Source: Sulfobacillus benefaciens (GTDB lineage Bacteria > Bacillota > Sulfobacillia > Sulfobacillales > Sulfobacillaceae). Taken from it: a stretch of 39,213 nucleotides of DNA. A program made the position numbers and the translations under genes. The notes below the pieces were generated by a model. It ran no database searches and was not told the origin of the DNA. It saw only the letters and a program-made list of their open reading frames with translations. Positions 2,963 through 33,800 of the stretch are shown piece after piece (position 1 is the first letter of the stretch; every line of letters starts with the position of its first letter). The DNA is taken from assembly GCA_003023725.1 (NCBI GenBank), contig PXYT01000047.1:1-39213 (forward strand). Direction: 5' to 3'.

Positions 2963-3565
2963 ATGGAGAAATACTTATCCATCGGCAAGGCGGTAAAGAT
3001 TCTGGCAGTCACGCCCAAGACCTTGCGACGATGGGAACTTGCCAAAGCCATTCAATCAAACAGAACGCACCCCCACGGGATGTCGTCGCAGTCGCTCCGC
3101 GGAGATTATCCATCCTCACCAAACACCCAGTGGGACTCGGACGGCGATGCGTGATCTATGCTTGGGTGTCGGCAAAACGATCCCCTGACGGCAACTTCGA
3201 TCGGCAGCGTAATCGGCTCCTCGATGAGGCGCAGAAACGTGACCATGATCCGGTCTTGGTTGTCACCGAGCAGGCTTCCGCATTAATGACAAGCGATCCG
3301 GTCTCTAACGCGTGTTGCGATTAGCAGAGAAAAGAGGGTTTGATGTCTTGCTCATCGATCGAATGTCCGGATCGGTTGGCCCGCTTTGGTTGCCGTTACC
3401 TTGCCGAATATCTGCGGGCCTTTGATGTGTGAGCGGAAATCGTTTAGACCTCTCACATCCTTTGAAGAAGAATTGACCCGCGACTCCTCACCATCCTGAC
3501 GGTGTTCTCCGGTAGGTTCTATGGTAGAAGGAGTAAGAGATTCCGCAAGAAATCACAGACCATTC
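2963..3565 (+). pseudogene. IS607-type serine recombinase (tnpA) relic
   Basis: Broken transposase of an IS607-family element. The MerR-like HTH begins at the ATG at 2963 (MEKYLSIGKAVKILAV...TLRRWE). The resolvase domain continues in another frame with CVIYAWVSAKRSPDGN, NFDRQRNRLLDEA and VVTEQAS (catalytic Ser region in AWVS). It then moves through RLAEKRGFDVLLI to PDRLARFGCRYLAEYLRAF and ends in LTILTVFSGRFYGRRSKRF near 3560. At least four frame changes and several stops separate these blocks, so it cannot be active. A tnpB partner normally follows; only a doubtful short reading frame (3604-3711) is seen, so the element is probably truncated. It lies directly upstream of the nif relic and may have helped break it. 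Confidence 0.8.
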
Positions 3566-3684
3566 ACAAGCACAACGACAGGAAAGAGTGTAAATTCTAT
3601 AGCCATGAAGACGATCACACTGGGCGTCGATAAGAACATCCACATGATCAAACCGGAAATCCATCCGAGAGACGCAAGTCCTAT

Positions 3685-4059
3685 ATGCGTCTGCGGTTTG
3701 AGTCAGCTGTAGACACCACTGAAGTGTTTGCCGTCTATGATGGTACCTCTGAAGACTTTTCTTTGTTGGAAGTGCAGGATGTTCCTAAACTTGAGAACAG
3801 ACGACAAGATATGCACCGGGCAGATATTATTCTCGATTGCTATATGTTGAACGTAGCCAACATCGGCGGGAGTGCTGAGGCAAAGGTAACCCGAGCCTGC
3901 GTTCACCCCGTAAAATCGCGAGGAGATCCCACTATCGTATCGGTGTTGGAGAAGTTGCAGTCAGTCGTGCAGGGCACAACACTTCCCTGGCTGCATAAGT
4001 TCCTCACGACAAGAGTGAAACCGCGTCGACTGGGAACTTTTAAACCAAACAGAGCGTAA
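3685..4059 (+). pseudogene. nifX: nifX-like FeMo-cofactor binding protein relic
   Basis: Dinitrogenase iron-molybdenum cofactor carrier (NifX/NafY family), which shuttles NifB-co or FeMo-co during nitrogenase maturation. The open frame of 124 aa shows FAVYDGTSEDFSLLEV, then VANIGGSAEAKVTRACVHPV, then VSVLEKLQSVVQGTTLPWL. These blocks run in the order and spacing typical of NifX, including the C-terminal VLEKLQ-x-V-x-G-x-x-x-PWL motif. The N-terminus is degenerate: the usual MKIAFA...D-x-HFG segment has shrunk to MRLRFESAVDT. That argues for a decayed gene even though the rest is open. It is followed by a possible DUF269 relic and by a nifW relic, which matches the usual nifX-DUF269 order. I am fairly sure of the family and less sure of inactivity. 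Confidence 0.72.
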
Positions 4060-4080
4060 AGAGATTAAGAGAGAATATTT

Positions 4081-4440
4081 ATGGACGAATCCCCCACCAC
4101 CCTGCCGTCCTTTACGGCCACCCTAATCTCCCAAATCTTCGCCGAGGATCCTTACGGCGAGCGACACGGCTCTATTGAAAAGTATCCGGAAGCAGCCAGA
4201 GACCGAACTCTCAAGGGCGCAAGGATCCTTCACCACCCAAAACCTGGCAGGGACCGGTGGACGAGAGAGGTCTTCCACACGCGAACGGGTCCAGGCTTTT
4301 CACAAACGCCCGTTAACTGGAAGTTCCGTGTATCACGCCATCCTCAGCAGTAGGGACCAGGGCCCAAATAACGTGGCAGAGCGTTTCGTCATCGTTTCAT
4401 CCTATCCCGGAGCACATGATGGAAGAACGGTTGTGGGAAC
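4081..4440 (+). pseudogene. Possible NifX-associated (DUF269) gene relic
   Basis: An ATG at 4081, 21 bp after the nifX relic, opens a frame beginning MDESPTTLPSFTATLISQIF followed by AEDPYGE. This resembles the N-terminus of DUF269 'NifX-associated nitrogen fixation' proteins (a short leader, then F-x-x-x-L-x-x-Q-x-x-A-E-D-x-YG). Downstream the similarity dissolves. Plausible coding pieces switch to another frame (GSSVYHAILSSRDQG, NNVAERFVIVSSYPG), and no domain is complete. The assignment leans on position between nifX and nifW and is tentative; it could be unrelated debris. Confidence 0.35.
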
Positions 4441-4526
4441 TTGGGAACTTTGATGCCTACCGGCACACCCAACAATGACAGGGCTCAGGTTAGTGAAAGA
4501 AAACGAATTTGGAAGGAAGTAGTAGA

Positions 4527-4884
4527 ATGTCCATGGCAAAGAGCTGGGAGACATTGTCCTTGCTAGAAGATTTTTGCAGTTTTTCGCTGTTCCCTATGGT
4601 TCCCGGGTGATCAACGTTAACCGTTTCCATACCATCTCAACCGTCTCCATAGCATGAAGAAGTTCTCGGTTCGGATGCAGGAGATAAATGAGTCAATGCT
4701 TAACGAAAGTGAGCGAATGCACGCCTAGCGAGATGCCGTAGTCAAGGTTTACGACAATTTTCTGACATTCTCCGCCATTGAGAAACGATTCTTCAAAGTC
4801 CAACAGCAGTATGGATCCAAACCGGTTCAGTTTCTCAGTATCCTTGCGCTCATTGGCGATGAGGAAGAAAATCAAGAGCAATAA
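4527..4884 (+). pseudogene. nifW: nifW (nitrogenase-stabilising protein) relic
   Basis: NifW is a small protein (about 100-120 aa) that protects or stabilises MoFe nitrogenase. Three frames are needed to read it. The first, from the ATG at 4527, is MSMAKSWETLSLLEDFCSF. The second contains FFAVPYGSRVINVNRFHTIS, the NifW hallmark F-F-x-V-x-Y/F-x-x-x-V-(V/I)-NVNR-x-H. The third, from the ATG at 4654, has an in-frame TAG at 4726-4728 and then RDAVVKVYDNFLTFSAIEKR, FFKVQQQ and QFLSILALIGDEEE. Total length, block order and C-terminal E-K-x-F-K-V match the family. The gene is dead from two frame changes plus an amber codon. With nifX upstream it marks a lost nitrogen-fixation cluster. Confidence 0.7.
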
Positions 4885-5424
4885 CTTTGTCCCGCACGAC
4901 GCCCGATATCACATTTTCGAAGAAGGATTGGCGAGCAAGTGGCGAGTCAAACGCGACTTCCCCGGTTTCTTGGGACCAAGAAATTCTTGGACCTCGTCGG
5001 GACCAGGATAATCTTTTGGCATAACAGCAGAGTTTTGACTTCGCCGATGCTGTATCTTCGGAGCAGAACGCCCGGGAAGTAAACGATGTCCTCCTTGCCG
5101 CCTCGGATGCAAAGTGACTCCTATCCACGCGGGATTCATTGAATACGCCATACCTGGCGTGCTCAATTCGCATGTACCCGCGACAAGAAGATGAGCGTCG
5201 ACACGTGCGCCATGGCGCACCATATCCATACCACATGGACCGATGGCGCAGGCCATATGGCTTGAGAGCTCTGCCATTAAGCCCCAGAGCGGGAATTCCA
5301 TTGTCCTGTCAAGATACTCCGTGTGGTCGCTGATTGTCTTAAACATTTGCACCATACTGGAATTGGTTCCACAGCTTCCATCACTTTCATGTTTTCCTTA
5401 TCCAAGAAGGGAAGCGGATCAATC
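4885..5424. other. Unassigned stretch with one unrecognised minus-strand ORF
   Basis: The longest open frame is on the minus strand at 4909-5355 (148 aa, no obvious SD). Its first half (HTEYLDRTMEFPLWGLMAEL, ACAIGPCGMDMVRHGA, LLVAGTCELSTPGMAYSMNP) reads like real protein, and its second half is basic and irregular. I do not recognise a family. It may be a relic, and the plus strand also has short open frames here. No RNA gene or repeat is evident. Confidence 0.2.
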
Positions 5425-6000
5425 ATGTTTATCGACTTTCTGGGCGTTATGCTGGTGAACTTGACGGCGGGGTTGGCTCTCTTAGCCCATTATCTCTATA
5501 TCAATCCGGAACCCGGAGCACGCCGAAGTTGGGCAGCAGGATTTTTTGCTGCCGGTCTCTTAGGGTTTGTCACCGCCTTCGTGATGGTGATCACCTGGCC
5601 TTTGCCCGGTTCTTACAACCTCGTGTTTGGCGAACCCGCCTTGTTTCTCAGTACGGCCTTTCTCGCTGCCGCCGTCACCTTAGCTTTCCAATGGGAACCC
5701 TTGATTCCCGCTTTATATGGTGTGTTTGGCGGCATCATGGCGATTGTCATCGGGCTGCGGATTTGGGATCTCGGATTAACCAAAGCCCCTCTTCTGGCGG
5801 GACTGGGTTACGTCCTGGTCGGTCTTGGCGGCGTCTTGACCGCTCCTGCTTTGCAGTGGCGCAAGATTCGCTGGCTGACCGTCGTCACTGCCGTGATTTT
5901 GGGTATTGCCGCTTTGATCTGGGCCGTTACTGGGTATGAGGCCGTGTGGGGTCATATTCTGGACTTTGCCAAATACCTGCCGGCGACCATGCACAAATAA
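5425..6000 (+). CDS. DUF981 family membrane protein
   Basis: Predicted integral membrane protein of about 191 aa with six or seven hydrophobic segments. It starts with FIDFLGVMLVNLTAGLALLA and contains a conserved-looking VITWPLPGSYNLVFGEPALF loop, as in the DUF981 proteins of acidophilic bacteria and archaea. I use the ATG at 5425, preceded by AAGAAGGGAAGCGGA; an upstream GTG frame at 5323 adds 34 unlike residues. DUF981 proteins have no proven function but are often found near respiratory genes in acidophiles (recalled, not checked). Here it sits alone between decayed regions, and its intact frame suggests it is still under selection. Confidence 0.8.
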   Translation: MFIDFLGVMLVNLTAGLALLAHYLYINPEPGARRSWAAGFFAAGLLGFVTAFVMVITWPLPGSYNLVFGEPALFLSTAFLAAAVTLAFQWEPLIPALYGVFGGIMAIVIGLRIWDLGLTKAPLLAGLGYVLVGLGGVLTAPALQWRKIRWLTVVTAVILGIAALIWAVTGYEAVWGHILDFAKYLPATMHK

Positions 6001-6139
6001 AATAAGAGCTCTTCGGCGGGACAAAAGAGCGAGGGTAGGCGTTCCTCTGTTAATTGGGAAATGAGGAGGTGGGATCCTGTGACGGATCGAAATAGGGCAG
6101 CCATTACACCCTTCGGCATCGCGATGCGGGCATCAAAAC

Positions 6140-6735
6140 GACATCGAGGACGTGGAAGTGCAGGCCAACTTCCGGAACACGCCGGATTTTGTTGTGCGCT
6201 GCCACGGGATGCTCACCCCCCTTCTCGTCCGTGTTTCTGTCCCGCCTGTTCGGTTCGTGGAATAATATTACGGTCGCCGCTATTCTAACTCCTCCCCGGT
6301 TGACTCTGGATGCGGCCCGAGCATGGCGGCAGGCGGCCATCCTCAACCATTGGTTCGGGTTCTGAATGATGGCGTTGAGAATGGACGCGTCTTAACCAGT
6401 CTGAAGCTGGGTGTCGTCGCCTCGTCGTTGTCCGCGCAAGATGCGGGGTTGGTTCATCTCCTGCATCTTGCAGGTTGCTGGGTTCGCGTCATGGATGTGT
6501 CCTAGAGCTATCAGGCACTTCACACGAAGGACAGCTGGCTGTCTCTGGGTCCTTTGGACTGGATGGTGTGGGATCTTTTGGCTCAACACGGCACCAATGC
6601 CCAAATTGCACGGCATCTAGGCATCGCCGAATCCCGTGCCAAACGCCGTGTGCGGGTGATCTGTCAGGCTCTTGGGCATCGTCGGGTTCAAGCCGGGAAA
6701 CACTGTCAATTCTTGATCCCTGGCGTAAACCGGAA
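6140..6735 (+). pseudogene. NarL/LuxR-type response regulator relic
   Basis: Scattered frames spell a broken two-component regulator. A receiver-like part reads DIEDVEVQANFRNTPDFVVR, followed in another frame by LTLDAARAWRQAAILNHW. A linker reads VVASSLSAQDAGLVHLLHLA, which resembles the receiver alpha4 area. The LuxR/GerE helix-turn-helix is the best-kept piece: MVWDLLAQHGTNAQIARHLG, then IAESRAKRRVRVICQALG, ending near QFLIPGVN. Several stops and frame changes lie between the blocks and no start codon or phosphoacceptor Asp can be assigned, so the gene is not functional. Confidence 0.6.
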
Positions 6736-6969
6736 GAACAGGGGGTCCATCCGTTCAGTGATGATCCGGAAGGGCCACGCCGACCCCGGGGAAGAGGATA
6801 AAGAGTTTTCGTCAGGTTCGCAGCGGTCGATCCCGCGACACCATCATTGTGGGAAAATCTCTTCCCTGTTCTGGCTGGGTAGGGGCTTTCCACGGGATCA
6901 GAAAGTCTCAAAAGTTCACCTCGTGGTGCGTCCGTTGTACTCAGGGATTAGGAAGAAGGTGAACCGTTC

Positions 6970-7260
6970 GTGAACAGAATCGAGATGTTGATATTTCTCT
7001 TGGGGTTATTCGTGTTGGGCATGGGGGTTCTGTGGGGCGTCCGCCGAACATTCCATGTGCACTGGGCATCCCGGCCCCGTTCGGCTGTCTCTCATCAATC
7101 CGCGCTATGCTTCGATACCCGCCGAATCCACTGGGTCTGGCGTTCCGGCCGAGGTCTATGGCGCGTGTTTCCCTCTCGCGGACGTCAGGGACCACGAAAG
7201 AGAGCTTCGAAAAGAGGGACTGAATCTCAGACTTCAGACTTCAGACACCGGATAAAATGA
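6970..7260 (+). CDS. Short unassigned ORF with N-terminal membrane segment
   Basis: An open frame of 96 aa begins with a plausible membrane helix (MLIFLLGLFVLGMGVLWGV) and continues into a very basic, compositionally odd tail. A second open frame in the same stretch (RLSLINPRYASIPAESTGSG, ending DHERELRKEGLNLRLQT) looks more protein-like after the helix. A frameshift near 7060-7100 could therefore join the helix to that tail. I recognise no family. It may be a relic. Confidence 0.25.
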   Translation: MNRIEMLIFLLGLFVLGMGVLWGVRRTFHVHWASRPRSAVSHQSALCFDTRRIHWVWRSGRGLWRVFPSRGRQGPRKRASKRGTESQTSDFRHRIK

Positions 7261-7261
7261 G

Positions 7262-7643
7262 ATGCCGTACACCCTCTACGAACGAGAAGGCTTACCGTGT
7301 GTGAGGCAATCCCCGGGAACAAGCGCTAAGTTCTCTTGCTGGCATCACACCGCCGTAAATGGTCTCGGCGAAGTGGCGACGATGGCGAGCACATTTTCCG
7401 ACCCATGTGACTCACGGGGAAAGCTTCGAGAAGGGGCTTGTGAGTGTCCGAACGGGCCTGGGCAAAGAGATTCGAGAGGATTAAGCGGCATAAGAATAGA
7501 ATTTGGCGGATCGCCGAGTCCAAACGGACTCACCCTGCCGGACTATCTGCCAACAATCACGGACCCCATGGACCTGGTACGCCGCCCTCATCGTGATAAC
7601 ATGATGATGACGGGATTCACCAATAAGAAGGGGTGTGAGATTC
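7262..7643. other. Decayed stretch, possible aldehyde-dehydrogenase N-terminal debris
   Basis: A long plus frame (7262-7804) overlaps the better-supported gene at 7644 and is probably not real. Pieces in two frames (TFSDPCDSRGKLREG; GLVSVRTGLGKEIRED) faintly resemble the N-terminal region of 1-pyrroline-5-carboxylate dehydrogenases (F-S-D-P...L-x-x-V-R-x-x-L-G). I treat this as a weak guess. Confidence 0.15.
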
Positions 7644-8102
7644 ATGAATACGCCACGGCTCGTAGATGCCACAAATGTCGGTACCGAGCGTATCCGCAGA
7701 ATTCAGAGGTTGCGGCTGTCCTTGGTGTTTTTTGCTCTCTTGGATGTGGCCGCGCACTTATTCGCCTCACCCGGCGCCACACCGATTGTGTCCTACTGGA
7801 TTGACATTGAAACAGCAACCTACGGGTTGATTGCCATCGTCTATCTCTTGGGCCTCCGCCGGTTTTACGGACCGCCGATTCTCTTCACGGCTTACAATCT
7901 GTTCATGTATTTCCTCTCGGGTTTGACGGCCTTGCCCTTCGGGATTAGTAAAGCTCCTTTAGCCGGTCATATCCAATTTCTCGCCTACTCCTTTGGCCGG
8001 GGATTTTCCTTAGTTCCGTGGCTCTATCTGCTGATTGTGGGCATCATCATGCTCAAAGCGGACAAAGGAAGCCAGTTAAATGATCTGCTGAAAAAGAGTT
8101 AA
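7644..8102 (+). CDS. Small four-helix membrane protein, unknown function
   Basis: 152 aa from the ATG at 7644, chosen because AAGAAGGGG lies 10 nt upstream; an in-frame GTG three codons earlier is less well placed. After a charged N-terminus (about 20 aa) there are four hydrophobic segments: LSLVFFALLDVAAHLFA, then around TATYGLIAIVYLLGL, around LFTAYNLFMYFLSGLTAL, and VPWLYLLIVGIIMLKA. A short basic tail ends KKS. No family is recognised. The frame is clean between two degraded regions, so it is probably expressed. It points towards the converging acyl-CoA dehydrogenase operon. Confidence 0.65.
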   Translation: MNTPRLVDATNVGTERIRRIQRLRLSLVFFALLDVAAHLFASPGATPIVSYWIDIETATYGLIAIVYLLGLRRFYGPPILFTAYNLFMYFLSGLTALPFGISKAPLAGHIQFLAYSFGRGFSLVPWLYLLIVGIIMLKADKGSQLNDLLKKS

Positions 8103-20226: not shown

Positions 20227-20240
20227 CCGGGAGGCACGTC

Positions 20241-20933
20241 ATGAATCAATTTTGGTGGCTCATTTATCCCTATTTAAGCGTGACGGTATTGATCGTCGGA
20301 AGCCTATATCGGTATGCCTTCAACCCTATGAGTTGGGGCTCACGGTCCAGCGAATTACTCGAAAAACGACAGCTGCGATGGGGTAGCCAACTGTTTCATT
20401 GGGGTCTGCTCCTGGTTATTGTGGGTCATGTTATGGGGCTTCTCATACCGGTGTCAGTGTACCAGGCCATCGGCATATCGCACGACATGTATCATACCAA
20501 TGCCGACATTTTGGGTGGAATGGCAGGACTCATAACATGGATTGGATTACTCATCCTTCTCATTCGTCGGCTCGGAAATCGCCGCATTCGTACGAATTCG
20601 AGTGTGTCTGACATAGTCGCGCTCATTCTTTTGTTTATTGTCGTGAGTCTCGGGGACAGTATGACGCTTATTTACAACAATGTGGTCGGCCCCTATGGAT
20701 ATCGGCACACCATTGGTCCATGGGTGCGGGGGTTGTTAGTGCTACATCCTGATGTGGCACTCATGTCTCATGTTCCGGTGTTGTTTCAAATTCATATTAT
20801 TTTGGCCTTTTTGCTATTTGCTCTCTTGCCATTTACGCGCTTGGTCCATATTTGGAGCTTGCCGTTGGCGTATTTGCGGAGAACGCCTATTCAATACCGA
20901 TCGCGCCAACAGTACCGGCGCCACCCCTCATAA
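20241..20933 (+). CDS. narI: Respiratory nitrate reductase gamma subunit (cytochrome b)
   Basis: Membrane cytochrome b that takes electrons from quinol and passes them to NarH/NarG. 230 aa with about five membrane helices. Haem ligands are in place: H53 and H63 ten residues apart (LFHWGLLLVIVGH), and a second pair 18 residues apart near the C-terminus (FQIHIILAF...TRLVHIW). These match the ligand spacing of E. coli NarI. The ATG at 20241 follows GGGAGG. The gene is complete and clean although its partners narG and narH are not in the window and narJ is a fragment. Either it serves a reductase encoded elsewhere or it has only recently lost its operon. Confidence 0.9.
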   Translation: MNQFWWLIYPYLSVTVLIVGSLYRYAFNPMSWGSRSSELLEKRQLRWGSQLFHWGLLLVIVGHVMGLLIPVSVYQAIGISHDMYHTNADILGGMAGLITWIGLLILLIRRLGNRRIRTNSSVSDIVALILLFIVVSLGDSMTLIYNNVVGPYGYRHTIGPWVRGLLVLHPDVALMSHVPVLFQIHIILAFLLFALLPFTRLVHIWSLPLAYLRRTPIQYRSRQQYRRHPS

Positions 20934-30898: not shown

Positions 30899-33800
30899 TT
30901 AGCGCATCACACTCGGCATCACAAAATAGTAGATCAGACCCACGATAATCAGCCAGACCAGCACCACCAGCGTCCACCCTAAGTTGTGGCGTATCACTTG
31001 TCCTTCACTGCGAACATACTTACTGGTAGAGTAGGAGGGGTTCTTACGAACCCCGTCCCCTCATCGAACCGGACTTGTGGTTTTTCCACATCCGGCTCTC
31101 CGACGATAGTTGCCCTAGCACTAAGGGCGAGGAAGTTGCGCCAGAACTTGGCGGCGCATCATAGCAAGAGAAGGTAAACCCATATGGGCTAGGCGGGTGT
31201 TGGTCCACTCAGCATCGAGAGCGGGACTGCGATTCCAGCGTTTGGCCACGAAGGCCCGACATCGCTCGCGGACCCAAGCATCCAGTTGGTAGTAATTGCC
31301 GTTGTGGCTTATGGTGAAATACTGCCCCCACCCCCGGATTACCGGTGCGAGGTCGTCAATCACCATCTGCAGATTCATCGGACGGGTTCGCCGTGTCAGC
31401 TCCCGAACGCGATTCTTGAAGCGCTCGGCGGCTGCCTGTTTTGGGCCAAAGAGAGGGCGGCCGGGGCCGCCCTTGGTCGGTGCCCAGAAGAACGTAAAGC
31501 CCAAGAAATCGAAGGCCGTTGCCCGCACGTTCACGATGCGGGTTTTCTCCGGGTGAAGCGTGAGCCGCAATTCACCGAGGACGATCTGGGCCATCCTGAG
31601 AGCGGCTTGGGCATCTTCTTGGGTCCGTGCCAGCGCACACCAATCATCTGCGTAGCGGATGAATTGAATGCCCGGTAGACGTGCCATGGCTTGGTCCAAT
31701 GCGTCGAGGTAGATGTTGGCCAACAGGGGACTAATCACCGACCCTTGGCTCGTTCCGCGAGAGGTCGGTTGCCATTGCCCGGCGTCCATGACGCCGGCCC
31801 GTAGCATATCACGCAACCACCCCAGTACAGTGCCATCCGAGATGCGTTCTGCCACCTTATCGATCAGGAGTTGTTGGTCGATAGAACCAAAATAGTCCCG
31901 AATGTCGGCATCCACCACCCAGTGATATCCGTCACTCAGATGGGCGAAAATGCGGTGGACCGCCTCATGGGCACTCCGGCCCGGTCGGAAGCCGTAGCTA
32001 TCGACACTAAAGGTGGGTTCCCAGATAGGCTCCATCACCCGCCGCATGGCTTCCTCCGCTACGCGGTCCCGGATAGCCGGAACCCCTAAGGGCCGTTGCT
32101 TCTTGGTGCCCGGCTTGGGTATCCAGACACGGCGAACCGGCAAGGGTTTATAGCGATGCTCCTGCATCGCACGCCCGAGTCGGTCGAGCTCGTCGCCCAG
32201 ATGCTCCGCAAATTGGTCACCACTCTGGTGGTCGACTCCTGCAGCCCCGCGGTTGGCTAAGACCGCCGCGGCGGCCATCGCTAGAATTCGCGGGGTTCCA
32301 GACTTTATCCGCCATACTATACCATTTTCTTTGCAGTGCCATCCTCGTCTCCTCCATTCGTGCCGCCAGACGCCCCCATGGGGCACGGCTGTCTTTAGGG
32401 CCGGAGCCCAATCTTGCCTTGCCAGCGGGCACGCTCATGTGAGAATCCTATCGAAGTGACCGCCCTTCCCATTCCCGCGGAGTTCTGTTGTCTCCTGCGG
32501 TACTTCGGTACTATGCCGGTCTCCGACTCCCTATCCCACCCAAGAGCGGGGGTTGGCGGTCATCGCATTGCCCACTTGTCGAACTCTTGGACCAGACAGG
32601 GTCTCGCCGGGTCAGTCACAGTTCTTTCCTTCGGTGCCATCCCTAACCACCCGACGGGGTACGCTATGGTGCTGCTCGTTCCGTACTCGCTACAGGTAGC
32701 GATACCATGCTAACCACGGCGTTAGGAGGCTTCGCCCGATCGACGAGGGCTCGCCACCACCGTCAGGCCACCACGGGTTCACAGTTCGTTACGGCCCCGA
32801 AATTTGGCTCAGGCCCACCAGATTCTGGGTTACCCCAGACACCCTGCCATTATTGCCTACCGCACTTGAACGAGGAAATTCGCACGGGTTAGACTTTCAC
32901 TAACAAGAACTGCAACCTGCCGGTCGCACGTCGACACACCGACACTCGCGGTCTGTGGAGCAATGGGTTTGCCAACCTCTGCGCCGACGGAGTTCAGCGA
33001 CGGTAACAATAGGAGAGGGAAACCCAGAATTTTCCCGACCAGCGTCTGCATCAAACCAAACATGGCATTGGTCGAGGTGTTGCTTCCGGAAAGAGCCACT
33101 CCAATCCAGCCCAAAATGGGCGCCAGTAAGATGAACATTGGACCAACACGACTAAAAGTGTAGGCCAAAGAAGCCGCCATTCCCGAAAAGTTGAAGACGT
33201 CGGCCAGCCCGAAGATGAAGAAGCCAACCAAAATGGCACCCCACATTTGATACAGGGATGTTCGAAATATCTGACCGATGGTCCGGATCTTAGGACGCAA
33301 CAACAACAAAATAATAAGCCATGATGCAAGAATCGAAGTTCCTCCGACAAAAGGAGCAAAATTAAAGTCCACACTGGTGGCTTGATGCGAGATGGAGGAA
33401 ATGCCTACGACCTTCAACAGCAACCAACTGATCTGAGGCAACGGAGACCAAGGGCCGGTCCATAATACGACGACGATAATTAACACAATAAAGGGCAGCC
33501 AGGACCGGAATATTTCCTTGGTGCTTAAATGTGTTTCTTCGTTGCGAGCCGCCGCCACCTCGTCCAATTCCACTCCACCGAATCCCAAGATGTGCCGGGG
33601 ACGCCACACTTTTAAAAACAGCAAGAGACAGATAAAGGACACCAATGACCCGGTGACGTCGGGTAAATAAGGGCCGACCCATTGCGACACGGGAAACTGG
33701 CCTAAAATATAGGAGAACGATCCCACCACGGCTAGCGGCCAACCATCTCTGAATCCCTTTTTCCCCGTGACCAAATAAATCAAGACCCATGGCGGCAACA

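Follow-up and report, generated by a model that had tools for sequence, protein, structure and literature searches.

The window, by which we mean the whole 39,213-nucleotide stretch of DNA analysed here (bases 1-39213 of contig C98 of its genome, G000), very probably preserves the decayed 3' part of a Mo-nitrogenase cluster (nifX, DUF269 and nifW) that was shared with the ancestor of a relative in the same genus, G014, and was lost by deletion and then decay. A sequence-only reading of this DNA had proposed nifX, a possible DUF269 gene and nifW at 3685-4884; profile searches and comparison with G014 bear out the names, the order and the plus strand, with the relics spanning 3685-4842 (Table 1). 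Our analysis draws on six-frame profile searches of the whole G000 genome (a 4.56-Mb assembly in 155 contigs, 98% complete), on a family comparison of 34 genomes and a phylum sample of 398, and on frameshift-tolerant alignment of the window DNA to the proteins of G014, with the maxima reached by shuffled DNA as the control. Judged by gene content, the family is probably Sulfobacillaceae, and the bacterium is apparently a member of the acidophilic Sulfobacillus group. The relative, MAG Bacillota bacterium WH4.bin11 (JAKACM01), is a metagenome bin with 6% contamination.

Broken nif relics in one genome and a whole set in a relative of the same genus imply that the lineage once had nitrogenase genes and lost them, and place this metabolic loss inside a single, apparently acidophilic genus. 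A full-looking nif set is carried by at least one of its species, represented by G014, so that the intact counterpart of the relics is found within the genus, and the relics themselves reveal which parts of the cluster persist longest. Nitrogen supply is, moreover, a practical question in bioleaching.

Table 1. Relics and neighbouring genes at the nif locus of the window
Feature	Position	Strand	Basis
Putative IS607-family tnpA relic (MerR-type HTH and serine recombinase)	2963-3630	+	Pieces 2963-3151, 3148-3321, 3309-3422 and 3466-3630, in different frames
nifX relic	3685-4059	+	PF02579, TIGR02663, identity to G014 NifX, alignment, tree; homology 3718-4008
DUF269 (NifX-associated protein) relic, 5' end, 30 codons	4081-4170	+	Comparison with G014 DUF269
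DUF269 relic, 3' end	4175-4206	+	Last 32 nt of the G014 gene, 25/32 nt identical
nifW relic	4527-4842	+	PF03206, frameshift-tolerant alignment, codon comparison
DUF981 membrane-protein gene, intact	5323-6000	+	PF06168, E 6e-51
155-aa membrane-protein gene, intact, without Pfam family	7635-8102	+	Closest family match adjoins the nif operon on G014 contig C136, same orientation

The nif relics

The profiles for NifX (PF02579) and NifW (PF03206) both match the window, so that the lack of such matches, named beforehand as refuting the sequence-only reading, was not observed. In the frameshift-tolerant alignment nifX, the 5' end of DUF269 and nifW scored 280, 80 and 237, where shuffled DNA reached at most 39, 34 and 33, respectively. 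The frameshifts and amber codon that had been ascribed to these relics are only partly borne out: the amber codon is present, and frameshifts are found in nifW only, the nifX frame being open throughout. The expectation of an order usual for nif operons holds, since the succession nifX-DUF269-nifW and its strand are those of the intact G014 operon.

The nifX relic starts with the ATG at 3685 and is shortened. PF02579 matches 3718-3960 (+) with an E value of 3.4e-5 and 26.1-26.4 bits (cut-off 26.3) and TIGR02663 scores 60.8 bits (E 1.6e-16) against an equivalog cut-off of 112, profile scores by which we judge the relic to be homologous to NifX but degraded. It is 57% identical to G014 NifX over 100 aa (G014 residues 20-119), as opposed to at most 41% to plasmid-borne NifX among the matches listed. 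In a NifX tree the relic and G014 NifX are paired with 89% support, on branches of 1.27 and 0.10 substitutions per site, respectively; such a long branch, 13 times that of its partner, is what a loss of constraint in the relic would lead one to expect. The alignment further shows that the relic lacks about eight residues including the conserved HFG motif, plus three further residues. This motif, near the N-terminus, is present in NifX of G014, Methylococcus, Cupriavidus, Bradyrhizobium, Paraburkholderia and Rhizobium, and corresponds to a gap in the relic. An upstream frame beginning MKTITLGV at 3607 was considered as the lost NifX N-terminus and gained no support from the alignment; no similar frame was found among the loci compared, and it may belong to the mobile element upstream of nifX. 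We likewise rejected as a NifX the second PF02579 gene of G000 (C121; L007 11556-11894), an orphan small protein 18% identical to the relic; it is 112 aa long and lies beside a gene of the metallo-beta-lactamase fold, G000 having no nitrogenase.

The DUF269 relic is identified solely through its two ends, by comparison with the intact G014 gene. The 5' end is 57% identical to residues 1-30 of G014 DUF269 (E 1e-5), and in the 3' end the TGA stop of G014 is replaced by CGA; about 325 bp of the middle of the gene are gone, the two ends being joined by the deletion. The DUF269 profile (PF03270) misses the relic, because just the 30 N-terminal codons and the 3' end survive, and it matches no other place in G000; profile searches found no family in the stretch that follows, 4207-4526.

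All of nifW residues 1-99 are recognisable in 4527-4842. PF03206 matches the relic in two pieces, both above its cut-off of 23: 4633-4833, with one TAG inside, scores 41.4 bits (six-frame E value 6.6e-10), and 4541-4645 scores 23.4 bits (2.7e-4). The lesions of the gene comprise the loss of one base near 4575, an imperfect 20-bp tandem duplication (4620-4639 / 4640-4659) and the amber codon TAG at 4726-4728, after which the last frame is open to 4884. With two frame breaks, a TAG and a profile score reached in two pieces, we regard this gene as a pseudogene of nifW. Remnants of nifZ were sought in 4180-4530 and 4840-5330, where alignment scores were no better than those of shuffles.

The intact cluster of G014 and the flanks

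The counterpart of these relics lies on two contigs of G014. One of them, C136 (11.5 kb, L006), carries nifD, nifK, nifE, nifN, nifX, DUF269, nifW, a NifZ-domain gene, a pyridine-nucleotide reductase and a 155-aa gene; the other, C105, carries nifB, a NifS-like cysteine desulfurase, nifV and nifH. NifD, K, E, N, X and the NifX-associated protein score above their NCBIfam equivalog cut-offs, and NifW above its Pfam cut-off. The order nifX-DUF269-nifW, the strand and homologues of the neighbouring 155-aa and DUF981 genes on the nif contigs are common to G014 and the window; in contrast, the G014 cluster is intact, with nifH, D, K, E, N, Z, B, V and S, whereas the window holds three decayed accessory genes among rearranged neighbours. 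Several G014 contig ends lie within nifH (L006 7-123 and 11384-11500; the end of L072; the start of L073), and these breaks in the assembly probably reflect two nifH copies. Mis-binning of the nif contigs is conceivable in principle, yet they carry family genes close to those of the window.

The sequence-only reading had also proposed looking for nifHDK and nifB, as remnants or intact copies, in the rest of the genome and in sister strains: G000 proved to be without them, and intact copies were found in G014. In G000 we detected no protein of the PF00148 (NifD/K/E/N) type, no true NifH (NifH-profile matches have E values of 6.8e-8 or weaker, the level of genomes without nif) and no NifB, the two PF02579 places, the relic and C121, being neither of the NifB type. 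DNA of the G014 operon matches only the relics of the window, in which no remnants of nifD, K, E or N were found, nor any of the flavin reductase that adjoins nifW in G014. The gene set for a functional Mo-nitrogenase (nifH, D, K, E, N, B) is thus absent from the G000 assembly, and without structural genes this organism is very likely unable to fix nitrogen, with the reservation that further nif genes could lie on a contig missing from the 155-contig assembly.

On the 5' side of nifX, in the place that nifN takes in the G014 order, lie the pieces of a transposase gene, which we treat as a weakly supported relic of an IS607 element. The first piece matches the MerR profile PF00376 (E 6e-5), and the second and last weakly match the IS607 transposase profile NF033518 (E 0.037 and 0.0055; 13.6 and 16.3 bits against a cut-off of 110, short of a full-length recombinase), the last aligning to profile positions 167-185 of 187.

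The 3' flank links the window to G014. By blastn, the DUF981 gene and its upstream DNA (778 bp from 5226) are 83% identical in nucleotides to G014 C105:39109-39885, about 12 kb from nifB on the contig that also carries nifS, nifV and nifH. The 155-aa gene and its upstream DNA are 78% identical in nucleotides over 559 bp to C136, and its protein is 86% identical to the C136 copy versus 80% to the next best family copy, the further copies of G000 itself included. Most family members have this membrane-protein gene, with as many as three copies in a genome, and G000 has it also on C115 and C64; we rejected the other copies as syntenic anchors, there being no nif beside them at the 16 loci read. 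The order of neighbours differs, DUF981 lying beyond nifB in G014 and next to nifW in the window, which indicates that the region was rearranged. Between DUF981 and the 155-aa gene, 6000-7260 contains no convincing gene and no homology to the G014 nif contigs, and may be other decayed DNA.

Origin and loss

We propose that the cluster was present in the common ancestor of the window lineage and G014, that nifH, D, K, E, N and B were deleted or lost in the window lineage, and that the leftover accessory genes then lost their function and decayed in place. One ancestral cluster rather than two acquisitions would presumably lie behind both genomes, and we would guess that the IS607-type element took part in the deletion. 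The earlier suggestion that an ancestor fixed nitrogen, or gained nif by transfer and lost it, finds support in the intact G014 set, the shared neighbours and the absence of structural genes from G000; of its two parts, we infer ancestral N2 fixation because the G014 set is complete.

The distribution of nif bears on how the cluster arrived. NifW is found in two of the 34 family genomes, as a relic in G000 and in G014, and confident nitrogenase-type PF00148 proteins in G014 only (G007 has one weak match below the cut-off), a pattern more readily explained by acquisition inside the genus or by several losses. An RpoB tree places G000 as sister to G014 plus G015 with a support of 100. Since NifW and PF00148 searches found no nif in G015, to which G014 is most closely related, any history has to leave room for a second loss or a separate gain. 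In a comparison with 30 NifD loci of the phylum sample (398 genomes), G014 NifD is 63-69% identical to the closest set and about 40% to the rest. NifW is rare in this sample, with a single further match, a weak one; together with the patchy distribution, this rarity suggests that nif was transferred into the group at some point. The weak match (L126; G339:C1:1356812-1357036) scores 27.3 bits with one TAA inside, in a genome that also has NifD.

The same patchiness, the lack of nif in G015 and an identity of just 57% between the two NifX sequences would also fit a history in which the window lineage gained its own cluster, one unconnected with the G014 cluster, and later lost it; we consider this improbable, since the gene set and order are the same, neighbours are shared and the NifX tree joins both. 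Similarly little credence attaches to a transfer of nifX-DUF269-nifW without the structural genes, never functional in the window lineage. The missing nifHDKEN remnants in the G000 genome and the mobile-element relic at the 5' border are what such a transfer would leave, but the neighbours shared with the G014 nif contigs point to a cluster in place, and a truncated transfer would need to have landed beside the same genes.

Slightly less probable again is that nifX is still alive, its frame being expressed in a new role in the absence of nitrogenase, for instance as a carrier of metal clusters, of a cofactor or of iron-sulphur, amid dead neighbours in a lineage that lost N2 fixation. The open frame is in keeping with this, as is the distribution of differences from G014 nifX, which favour third codon positions (33/21/56 at positions 1/2/3 over 97 codons) and imply that part of the divergence accumulated under constraint; the time before the loss and the G014 branch can, however, explain this bias, the loss of the conserved HFG motif and the long branch speak of decay, and the genome holds no other nif partner. 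As for resemblance by chance, or intact genes misread in sequencing, poor sequence can indeed yield frameshifts and a stop, but a NifW E value of 6.6e-10 and alignment scores 2 to 7 times those of the best shuffles are far from chance, and faulty base calls do not create a 325-bp deletion, a 20-bp duplication or a genome lacking nifHDKENB; together these findings refute this reading and leave it scarcely credible.

Related cases and other loci in the window

Loss from a once shared cluster, the reading we prefer, has parallels. In the Bacillota genus Paenibacillus, a nif cluster was gained by an ancestor and lost in some members, as seen through homologous flanks (PMC3961195); the window resembles these non-fixing members in nif gain followed by loss and in its homologous flanks, and differs in that cluster loss is reported there, whereas three recognisable pseudogenes persist here. 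In many lineages, acidophiles among them, nif-related genes are described as undergoing net loss towards the tips of the diazotroph tree (PMC12903952). Nif gain and loss being so well documented, the relics represent an ordinary kind of gene loss. For Candidatus Hydrogenisulfobacillus filiaventi R50, nifCDEHKXZ are reported with no N2 use in batch culture (PMC10080006), a related thermoacidophile that, likened by description only, shares nif genes without growth on N2 but whose genes are reported as present, not decayed. Within Sulfobacillus, a genome comparison leaves nitrogenase unmentioned (PMC4378227) and the three species studied in another report are called unable to fix N2 (PMC5418355); in the open-licence literature we found no description of nif relics in this group.

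Elsewhere in the window, a narI-type gene (nitrate reductase gamma) at 20238-20918 (+) has no narG or narH beside it. Its homologue at G014 C105:36383-37063 is preceded by apparent narG, narH and narJ, and the locus is possibly a second decayed nitrogen-metabolism operon. A group II intron occupies 31026-32386 (-), with the Rfam family RF00029 matching 31026-31100 and a reverse transcriptase/maturase frame, intact, spanning 31121-32386.
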